A stretch of 32,821 bases of DNA, taken from Nitrospira sp. (GTDB lineage: Bacteria > Nitrospirota > Nitrospiria > Nitrospirales > Nitrospiraceae). The notes under the pieces were generated by a model. It did not search any database. It saw nothing but the letters and a program-made list of their open reading frames with translations, and was not told the DNA's origin. The stretch lies in contig PLBR01000253.1 of the NCBI GenBank assembly GCA_003135435.1, positions 2,282 to 35,102 of the forward strand. Direction: 5' to 3'. Numbering within the stretch: position 1 is the first letter of the stretch; each line of letters starts with the position of its first letter. Below, piece after piece: positions 2,057-32,821 of the stretch. The translations under genes and the position numbers were made by a program.

Positions 2057-2815
2057 ATGAAATTTGTGTGCCTCAACTGTGAAACCTACATGAACTTTGA
2101 GAAGGTGGAGAAGCCAGGGGAGGGCACGCTCGGCGTGTTCTTCGGCTGTCCGTCTTGCAATGCCAAGTTCTCGATGGTGACGAATCCAGGTGAAACCCAG
2201 ATGGTCAGTTCTCTCGGGGTGAAGCTGGGTGGGCGTACTGTTGAGGCCGAGCCTTTTGAGATGACGCGGGGTACGCTGAAAGACGAAGCAGTCGCAGGCG
2301 CTGGTCAGATGGCGGCGTATTTAAACGAGAAGATCCAAGGTGGTCAGCCGGCGGTAGCAGCAGCTACGGCTGCACCGGCAGCCAAGCCTGGAGAGAAGTC
2401 CGGCGGCGGTTGCCCCTTTTCCGCGATGGTGGCTGAAATGGGACTCACCTCAGGCGGTAAGCCCAGCGATGCTGGAGCGGCGACTACAGAGTTTGCCTGG
2501 TCGGCTGATGCGAAGGAAAAGCTCGACCGCCTTCCCTCATTTGTCAAGCCGATGGTGCAGAGCAGTGTGGAGGCCTTTGCTCGCAAACAGGGGTACCAGA
2601 CGATCACGTTGCAAGTGATGGACGATTCCAAGAGCGAATCGAGCAACGGGATGACCTGGACGCCTGAGGCTGAGAAGCGGCTTGAGAATATTCCAGACTT
2701 CATCCGTCCAATGGCTCGCAAAGAGGTTGAGCGGGTGGCGAAGGAACGCGGGATGGCGACCATTACGGCTCAAGTGATGGATGACGCGAAAGATAAGTTC
2801 ATGAAGTTCATGTAA
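2057..2815 (+). CDS. Zinc-ribbon protein with two PCP_red domains
   Basis: The 252-residue product starts with a probable zinc ribbon (C5, C8, C31, C34). A linker rich in Ala, Pro and Gly (about 95-145) follows and contains a GGGCPFS motif with C119. The C-terminal half holds two copies of the small helical domain called PCP_red, known from the end of the light-independent protochlorophyllide reductase B subunit (about residues 146-190 and 200-243). Each has the pattern W(S/T)xxAxxxL, then (L/I)PxF(V/I)xPM, then an Ala-rich helix and TIT. No chlorophyll genes are in the window, so the domains are probably used for something else, perhaps cofactor or Fe-S handling with the Mrp-like ATPase upstream. 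The start ATG has GAGGAG 5 bases upstream. Confidence 0.8.
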   Translation: MKFVCLNCETYMNFEKVEKPGEGTLGVFFGCPSCNAKFSMVTNPGETQMVSSLGVKLGGRTVEAEPFEMTRGTLKDEAVAGAGQMAAYLNEKIQGGQPAVAAATAAPAAKPGEKSGGGCPFSAMVAEMGLTSGGKPSDAGAATTEFAWSADAKEKLDRLPSFVKPMVQSSVEAFARKQGYQTITLQVMDDSKSESSNGMTWTPEAEKRLENIPDFIRPMARKEVERVAKERGMATITAQVMDDAKDKFMKFM

Positions 2816-31577: not shown

Positions 31578-31654
31578 GCGCCCGTAGCTCAATTGGATAG
31601 AGCATCGGACTTCGGATCCGAGGGTTGGGGGTTCAAGTCCCTCCGGGCGCACCA
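31578..31654 (+). tRNA. tRNA-Arg, anticodon TCG
   Basis: All arms can be drawn. The acceptor stem is GCGCCCG with CGGGCGC, the D stem GCTC with GAGC, the anticodon stem TCGGA with TCCGA and loop CTTCGGA (anticodon TCG at 31611-31613). The T arm is GGGGG, TTCAAGT, CCCTC, and CCA is encoded. It reads CGA and other CGN codons. Its 3' end is a common integration target, and the following DNA looks accessory. Confidence 0.96.
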
Positions 31655-31699
31655 ATTAATCAATATGTTATGATTTTCACGTTATCTCTTACGGACACA

Positions 31700-31715
31700 T
31701 GTAGAAACAGTGTAG
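31700..31715 (+). repeat. Recombinase arm-like motif, copy 1
   Basis: TGTAGAAACAGTGTAG begins 46 bases after the tRNA-Arg 3' end. It contains TGTAG twice. A copy with two substitutions follows the tRNA-Lys fragment at almost the same distance. It fits the arm-type binding site of a tyrosine recombinase. Confidence 0.5.
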
Positions 31716-31846
31716 AATTAGCGCCGCTCTGGCGTATCGCTCTCTCCGGTATATCACCACCAATTTAACGAGGGAGGGAATACGAAATGAGTGAAGACTC
31801 AGTTCAGGTCTCAGCTGCTCCTTGAATAAGCCTGTAGTTCGCACCG

Positions 31847-32323
31847 TTGACATCGATCAGCCTTCAGACGGCGGAGTTGCTGCCGCTTCCTTCCAAAGAA
31901 GTGCGGCAAGAAATCGGTCAGGCCGCAATTCGTTTTGGGCAACTGGAACATCCTCTGAAGGTCATCTACAAACGCTCGGATAAAAATATCTCCCTTGGCG
32001 TCGGCCTAGAAAGATTGAACGGGTGTACTCTTGGCGCCCTTTTAGTGGAATTAAAGGGCCTAATAAACTTGGCGAAAGGTAACCCACCGTTGGCTTCCGT
32101 AAAAGATCAACTGAGTCGGGTTCGTGATTTGTCCAAACCACGAAAGCGGTACTTGCATGATGGGACCGGCAGGAATTCAAGCGGAGAGTTTTTCTTCTTG
32201 CACACTGGGGAACAGATCGAAGAATCAAAAATGTTCGCCGAATTAGTTGCCGCGTCAACTTCTGCGGAATCTCTTCTCTCTGAACTTAACACGAAGCTCC
32301 CGGCGTCAAAGATGGAAGATTAA
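31847..32323 (+). CDS. Accessory hypothetical protein, probably 5'-damaged
   Basis: A 158-residue helical protein if started at TTG 31847, which has no ribosome binding site. An excellent start, GAGGGAGGG and then ATG at 31787, lies upstream in the same frame, but in-frame stops at 31823-31825 and 31835-31837 separate it from the rest. The original protein was probably 178 residues and its first 20 codons now carry two nonsense mutations. RYLHDGTG follows Pro-Arg-Lys and makes an Rx4H motif (RKRYLH), which may point to a HEPN-type fold, but the similarity is weak. The AT content is higher than in the core, in line with acquired DNA between two tRNA-linked sites. Confidence 0.5.
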   Translation: MTSISLQTAELLPLPSKEVRQEIGQAAIRFGQLEHPLKVIYKRSDKNISLGVGLERLNGCTLGALLVELKGLINLAKGNPPLASVKDQLSRVRDLSKPRKRYLHDGTGRNSSGEFFFLHTGEQIEESKMFAELVAASTSAESLLSELNTKLPASKMED

Positions 32324-32472
32324 TGTTGCCGGGCCGAGAAGAGAAGGAACGAGCTGACGTAATCCTCGCTGGCACGACGACGGCAACAAGGCTTCCAGGG
32401 GCATGCCATCCTCATCGAGCAACTGCACGTCCTGGACAGAGGGCCGAGGGAGCAAAAGTCTTGGAGAGTAAA

Positions 32473-32520
32473 TGACTCTTAATCAGCGGGCCGTAGGTTC
32501 GACCCCTACACGGCCCACCA
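32473..32520 (+). pseudogene. 3' fragment of tRNA-Lys(CTT), probable att core
   Basis: The 48 bases from TGACTCTTAATCAG to CCA match the anticodon arm, T arm (GTAGG TTCGACC CCTAC) and 3' acceptor of a tRNA-Lys with anticodon CTT. Identity is lost within the 5' strand of the anticodon stem, which is where integrases often cross over. GGGCCG at 32441-32446 could be the old 5' acceptor strand, but the D arm between is not recognisable and the total would be 80 bases. It is not a working tRNA. Confidence 0.75.
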
Positions 32521-32564
32521 AAAATCAGGCACTTACACACCATCCTCCTTCCAGCCAGTCTCCG

Positions 32565-32580
32565 TGTAGGCACAGTGTAG
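32565..32580 (+). repeat. Recombinase arm-like motif, copy 2
   Basis: TGTAGGCACAGTGTAG begins 45 bases after the tRNA-Lys fragment. It differs from the copy at 31700-31715 at two adjacent positions. Confidence 0.5.
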
Positions 32581-32620
32581 GCAGTAGAACGGAGAAAATA
32601 TATTTTTCTGCCCCCTCTGT

Positions 32621-32757
32621 CTAACCAGATGAACCAGACAAACAAGATCCCAGACCAACGAGATTAACCACCGCACCTGGTGGATTTGCCGTTCCGGACA
32701 ACAAGACAAACCAGACGAACGAAATAAACGAGATAAACCAAATAGACCAGACAGACC
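32621..32757 (+). repeat. Degenerate 9-bp direct repeat array
   Basis: Two blocks (32621-32672 and about 32699-32757) are built of 9-base units near ATAAACCAG, for example ATGAACCAG, ACAAACCAG, ATAAACGAG and ATAGACCAG. They are separated by 26 unique bases. There is no gene and no clean spacer, so this is not a CRISPR array. On the minus strand it translates as runs such as SGLFGLSRL, an artefact of the 3-codon period. Confidence 0.6.
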
Positions 32758-32821
32758 GTCCGTTACCATTCATCATTAGGGTTCAACATTTCGCCCCCTC
32801 CCCTGAAAGGCGGGGTGATTT

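Follow-up and report, generated by a model that had tools for sequence, protein, structure and literature searches.

A two-unit TGTAGR motif behind tRNA-Arg and tRNA-Lys 3' ends in Nitrospira is very probably the arm site of one P4-type integrase family

Near the right end of the DNA stretch analyzed here (the window, comprising the last 32,821 bases of the 35,102 bp contig C242 and ending at the contig end), an intact tRNA-Arg gene and a tRNA-Lys 3' fragment are each followed by a similar 16-base motif. What this motif is, and how a second tRNA end came to lie beside the first, are the questions raised by this locus. Searching the window located TGTAGAAACAGTGTAG exactly at 31700-31715 and TGTAGGCACAGTGTAG exactly at 32565-32580. 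There were 45 bases between the CCA of tRNA-Arg and the first motif, which starts at +46, and 44 bases between the CCA of the tRNA-Lys fragment (ending at 32520) and the second motif, which starts at +45. The shared motif and its two distances, first reported in the initial annotation, are thus real. The features of the locus are listed in Table 1. A match of both tRNA sequences to the Rfam family Plastid-ycf2 on the minus strand was below the gathering score and was rejected as arising artefactually from the complement of the tRNAs.

The genome (4.34 Mb in 254 contigs) was searched for TGTAG-NN-ACAGTGTAG, and four exact matches were found, against 0.022 expected from base composition. All four lie 44-48 bases past a tRNA 3' end, one behind a tRNA-Arg and three behind tRNA-Lys(CTT) 3' fragments; the two matches outside the window both follow tRNA-Lys(CTT) fragments. 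Among the 175 genomes of the family set, 17 exact matches were detected, 13 of them at 42-48 bases past a tRNA-Arg or tRNA-Lys 3' end, indicating that the motif is not widespread away from tRNAs. The remaining four have no tRNA in front of them and count against an arm-site reading. Within the window itself, three matches with three or fewer mismatches were obtained against 0.86 expected, a modest excess that two 16-mers alike by chance could explain; however, the four exact matches in the genome, all behind tRNA 3' ends, refute this explanation, the probability of which is negligible. Each motif contains two 7 bp direct repeats with an 11 bp period (TGTAGAA-ACAG-TGTAGAA for Arg and TGTAGGC-ACAG-TGTAGGC for Lys), and it is better described as two 7 bp sites one helical turn apart than as one 16-base unit.

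Table 1. Coordinates of the features at the tRNA-Arg/tRNA-Lys locus (window positions unless a contig is named) and of the element in G006.
Feature	Position	Strand	Basis or remark
tRNA-Arg(TCG), intact, integration target	31578..31654	+	ARAGORN
55 bp core of tRNA-Arg(TCG)	31600-31654	+	repeated 54/55 at G000:C21:15711-15765(-)
Probable P' arm, Arg element: TGTAGAA-ACAG-TGTAGAA	31700..31717	+	45 bp past tRNA; same-register repeats at 43/54 bp in G006
DNA inside insertion at tRNA-Arg(TCG)	31655..32821	+	unlike the empty-site flank of 13 relatives
ORF, 158 codons, between the two left ends	31847..32323	+	no family match
tRNA-Lys(CTT) 3' part, anticodon loop to CCA; putative core of second element type	32476..32520	+	match to intact gene
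Probable P' arm, Lys-type element: TGTAGGC-ACAG-TGTAGGC	32565..32582	+	44 bp past fragment
A+T-rich inverted repeat AGAAAATATATTTTTCT just inside Lys left end	32593..32609	.	conserved in many copies, alignment of 11 left ends
L097 element	G006:C1:1813831-1824595		tRNA-Arg(ACG), 10.7 kb

The tRNA-Arg side could be followed to a second contig, C21, which carries a 55 bp copy of the tRNA-Arg 3' part with one base different. On the element side of this copy, TGTAGAA sites are located at -128, -117, and -11 from the core, and a tyrosine integrase gene starts just inside and reads inward. The catalytic domain of its product matched PF00589 (5.8e-25, passing the cut-off), with the catalytic region conserved in the alignment, and its N-terminal arm-binding domain matched PF13356 (Arm-DNA-bind_3, 1.1e-18). 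The DNA beyond the copy is chromosomal, and its genes are found at the same place in many relatives. In 13 genus members, tRNA-Arg(TCG) is bare and the DNA downstream of it aligned to the C21 flank with scores of 116-427, compared with shuffle maxima of at most 37 (no locus tested exceeded 41 in its best of 200 shuffles). Neither the window nor other occupied loci aligned to this flank (scores of 19-32). These 13 loci are therefore empty sites, and together with the tRNA copy on C21 they indicate, at the level of sequence comparison, that the window tRNA-Arg(TCG) is attL and C21 holds attR of one insertion that the assembly presents as two separate contigs. The interior of this insertion, between C242 and C21, may be composite.

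A regulatory or transcriptional element of tRNA genes, such as an operator or a promoter, might also be expected at a fixed distance past tRNAs, and TGTAGATACAGTGTAG occurs away from tRNAs in two genus members (L087, G139:C16; L092, G162:C7), where it lies upstream of an apparent AbrB-type small gene on the opposite strand, beside the apparent gene start. However, the 13 empty sites have this tRNA-Arg(TCG) gene without the motif behind it, and the motif is found again at the end of the elements where the integrase lies. The empty sites largely refute the regulatory reading, which we consider very improbable.

Both ends of an element were present on one assembled sequence in two genomes, G006 and G149. 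In G006, which belongs to another genus, a single 4.2 Mb contig carries tRNA-Arg(ACG) with the motif and, after 10.7 kb of DNA, a second, exact 48 bp copy of the tRNA 3' part. The left arms are at +43 and +54 and the right-end sites at -135, -124, and -18, the same register as in C21 once a 7 bp difference in core start is taken into account. The G006 integrase is 65% identical to that of C21, is encoded at the same (attR) end, and also has the arm-binding domain (PF13356, 1.2e-17). The element further contains a primase-like gene (phrog_239, 5.5e-25) and a terminase-small-subunit-like Terminase_4 gene (PF05119, 2.1e-17), gene content hinting that it could be a phage satellite in Nitrospiraceae. 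A second integrase gene overlaps its attR. In G149, a 4.3 kb insertion at tRNA-Arg(TCG) (L141, G149:C342:22060-26590) has the left arm motif and the tRNA 3' repeat but no integrase, and is either an int-less remnant or a mobilizable element.

Both motifs of the window are thus very probably the P' arms of attachment sites used by one family of P4-type integrases at tRNA ends. Each P' arm would consist of two TGTAGR-type 7 bp sites one helical turn apart, and these repeats would be bound by the N-terminal arm-binding domain of the tyrosine integrase. The tRNA 3' part would form the core of strand exchange, with the exchange itself presumably taking place in the anticodon-loop region. In the integrated Arg(TCG) element, attL would comprise the tRNA and the P' arm in the window, and attR would comprise a P arm with distal (-128, -117) and proximal (-11) sites and the tRNA 3' copy on C21. 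The initial annotation had proposed two elements with related integrases, tRNA ends as cores, and arm sites at a fixed distance. This proposal was borne out by the C21 integrase at the Arg attR with TGTAGAA sites in register and by its relatives in G006 and G154, which have the same repeats; tyrosine-type integrases, on which the proposal depended, are abundant, with 34 matches in the genome of the window.

On the Lys side, the intact tRNA-Lys(CTT) gene was located on another contig (C177:1710-1785) with a different integrase and different arm repeats, in agreement with the earlier observation that no complete tRNA-Lys lies to the left of the window fragment. Counting the intact gene, the tRNA-Lys(CTT) 3' part was found 12 times in the genome. 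Copies are present on C36, C41, C85, C118, C123, C166, C219, C234, and C240 (L011-L022), and most copies are preceded by a conserved right end of about 150 bp (..AACGGGGAAACCTTCACAACATCGAGC..CTGCCA) that belongs to a different element family, one with TTTGTGCTA repeats; several copies end within the tRNA, L012 and L020 at the identical point. The TGTAGGC left ends have in common a conserved block reaching from the tRNA fragment to the A+T-rich inverted repeat, which lies just inside the arm sites and could serve as an operator or bind a host factor. The 16-base motif was kept in 10 of 11 aligned Lys-type left ends, the C108 copy having lost one unit. At least two of the left ends have a small excisionase-like gene immediately inward of them, with weak profile matches (phrog_66, 7.7e-8 and 4.6e-7) and a TIGR01764 match below the cut-off of that model. 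G149 has TGTAGGCACAGTGTAGGC directly behind its intact tRNA-Lys.

When Lys right ends were sought with a GTAGGC pattern, three usable cases were obtained, namely C77, C108, and one G149 copy; C77 and C108 have TCAGCAGGCC and the repeat layout in common with G154. No integrase adjoining the TGTAGG-type left ends was seen in the genome of the window, and none was seen at the right ends because contigs C77 and C108 stop there.

The Lys-type left end sits 0.8 kb inside the Arg element of the window. The ORF between the two left ends (Table 1) had no match in Pfam, PHROGs, or NCBIfam and is to a large part missing at the sister locus in G153, implying that it is probably decayed or not a gene. This sister locus has the same layout as the window (tRNA-Arg with TGTAGAATCAGTGTAGAA, about 0.4 kb, a tRNA-Lys part with TGTAGGCACAGTGTAGGC, and the contig end), so the Arg and Lys arrangement either predates the split of the two species or moved as a unit. 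The tRNA-Lys fragment had been interpreted as a decayed left end or a captured attP. With its P' arm present, the fragment is a left end; it is not a whole attP, since no TGTAG repeat was found to the left of it. Decay of a full-length tRNA-Lys was also considered and rejected, as the 5' acceptor/D part beyond AGAGCAGCTGA matched no better than shuffled sequences (p ~0.47).

Two explanations were considered for this left end. In the first, to which we give slightly less than an even chance, a Lys-type element entered a secondary site that is not a tRNA, in or beside the Arg element, so that the left half of the junction would be a chance site and the right half the tRNA-Lys 3' part and P' arm of the element. 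In the window, the tRNA match reads cleanly from the anticodon loop (32476) and begins at a crossover-type boundary (CTCTTAATC); C77 mirrors this, with just 12 bp of core behind a right end before unrelated DNA begins. The missing TGTAG repeat to the left of the fragment agrees with such an insertion. However, at G153 the tRNA-Lys match continues through AGAGCAGCTGA of the D/anticodon stems (0 of 5000 shuffles were as good), implying more than a chance site on the left. In the second explanation, which is a serious possibility even though we would not bet on it, the fragment is a junction produced by recombination of two left ends or by tandem accretion and later decayed, making the locus an Arg-type/Lys-type composite. 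Several of the 12 tRNA-Lys fragments in the genome clearly join the right end of one type to the left end of another, and the Arg element and the Lys-targeting elements belong to one integrase clade, but right-end sequence could not be recognized immediately to the left of the window fragment.

The Arg integrase is tied to the Lys type by G154, in which an integrase 53% identical to that of C21 lies directly beside a tRNA-Lys(CTT) 3' half with TGTAGACGCTGTGTAGAC / GTCAGCAGGCCGCCGTGTAGACGCTGTGTAGAC. Two more Nitrospira integrases (L196 and L197), 47-48% identical, have TGTAGACTCTGTGTAGAC upstream; a clear tRNA-Gln 3' part lies by the integrase in L197, and the L196 locus is interrupted by Ns. 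Upstream of the L197 int gene (2285-2360, minus strand), ARAGORN predicted a whole tRNA-Gln(TTG) at attR that is partly element DNA, possibly a pseudo-tRNA or an element-borne tRNA. As judged from these sequences, one integrase clade with a TGTAGR arm code appears to have spread to at least four tRNA targets (Arg-TCG, Arg-ACG, Lys-CTT, and Gln-TTG). It is an even bet that the clade repeatedly switched its tRNA target while keeping arm code and register, so that arm and core recognition evolve independently. If this is true, the end of one member lying within another could act as a cross-compatible docking site from which composite islands are built.

In fragmented Nitrospira genomes, a pair of TGTAGR sites with an 11 bp period, of which the first lies 42-48 bp past a tRNA 3' end, can be used as a signature to locate where integrated elements end, even if the integrase is encoded on a different contig. 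The clade also provides a naturally occurring group of integrases that combine one arm code with at least four tRNA targets, which is useful for studying how integrases change target.

The arrangement of the repeats was not confined to this clade. Perfect 8/8 direct repeats with a period of 9-12 were found 30-115 bp past five tRNAs of the genome (Arg-TCT, two Met, Leu, and Lys-TTT), all with a period of 11, and each of these tRNAs has a convergent integrase or integrase remnant; none of the 8/8 repeats occurred behind tRNAs of this genome without one, indicating a general layout whose sequence is particular to each integrase group. Other tRNA-linked integrases of the genome (L025, L026, L045, L046, L049, and L061) have their own 11 bp-period repeats (TTGTGCTA, TTTGTCCGTG, GGTCGTATT). 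These repeats overlap or lie near the int stop codon, which puts int at attL, the reverse of the arrangement in the TGTAGA clade.

A tRNA core flanked by integrase arm sites is established for lambda, P4-type elements, and KplE1 (PMC2951348). In the KplE1 prophage of E. coli, IntS, at argW, is reported to bind arm-type sites that share TAAA; these are positioned between tRNA core and int start, where they overlap the int promoter and cause self-repression (PMC2951348). The arm sites of the C21 integrase likewise lie between core and int start; however, their sequences are different, and int of KplE1 is at attL with the argW tRNA 3' end, whereas that of C21 is at attR. In most of the Rhodobacterales/Burkholderiales relatives (L198-L208, 27-36% identity, mostly alphaproteobacterial), int is preceded by a tRNA 3' half, and there are 11 bp-period direct repeats of CGGAAGC or CTACCG, unlike TGTAGR; these differences are consistent with arm code and integrase having diverged together. 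The Nitrospira integrases resemble the P4-type (Arm-DNA-bind_3) integrases of islands and satellites (P4, CP4-57-like, and pathogenicity-island integrases) in combining PF00589 with an N-terminal PF13356, in the tRNA 3' end core with direct-repeat arms on both sides, and in the tRNA 3' repeats bounding the element. In contrast to those systems, the Nitrospira clade has its own TGTAGR arm code, an int gene at the attR end reading inward, and other cargo. The literature text accessible to our search contained the KplE1 and P4-type precedents and no mention of a TGTAGR code. The kind of system is thus already known, and what the sequences described here appear to add is a Nitrospira arm code common to integrases with at least four tRNA targets.
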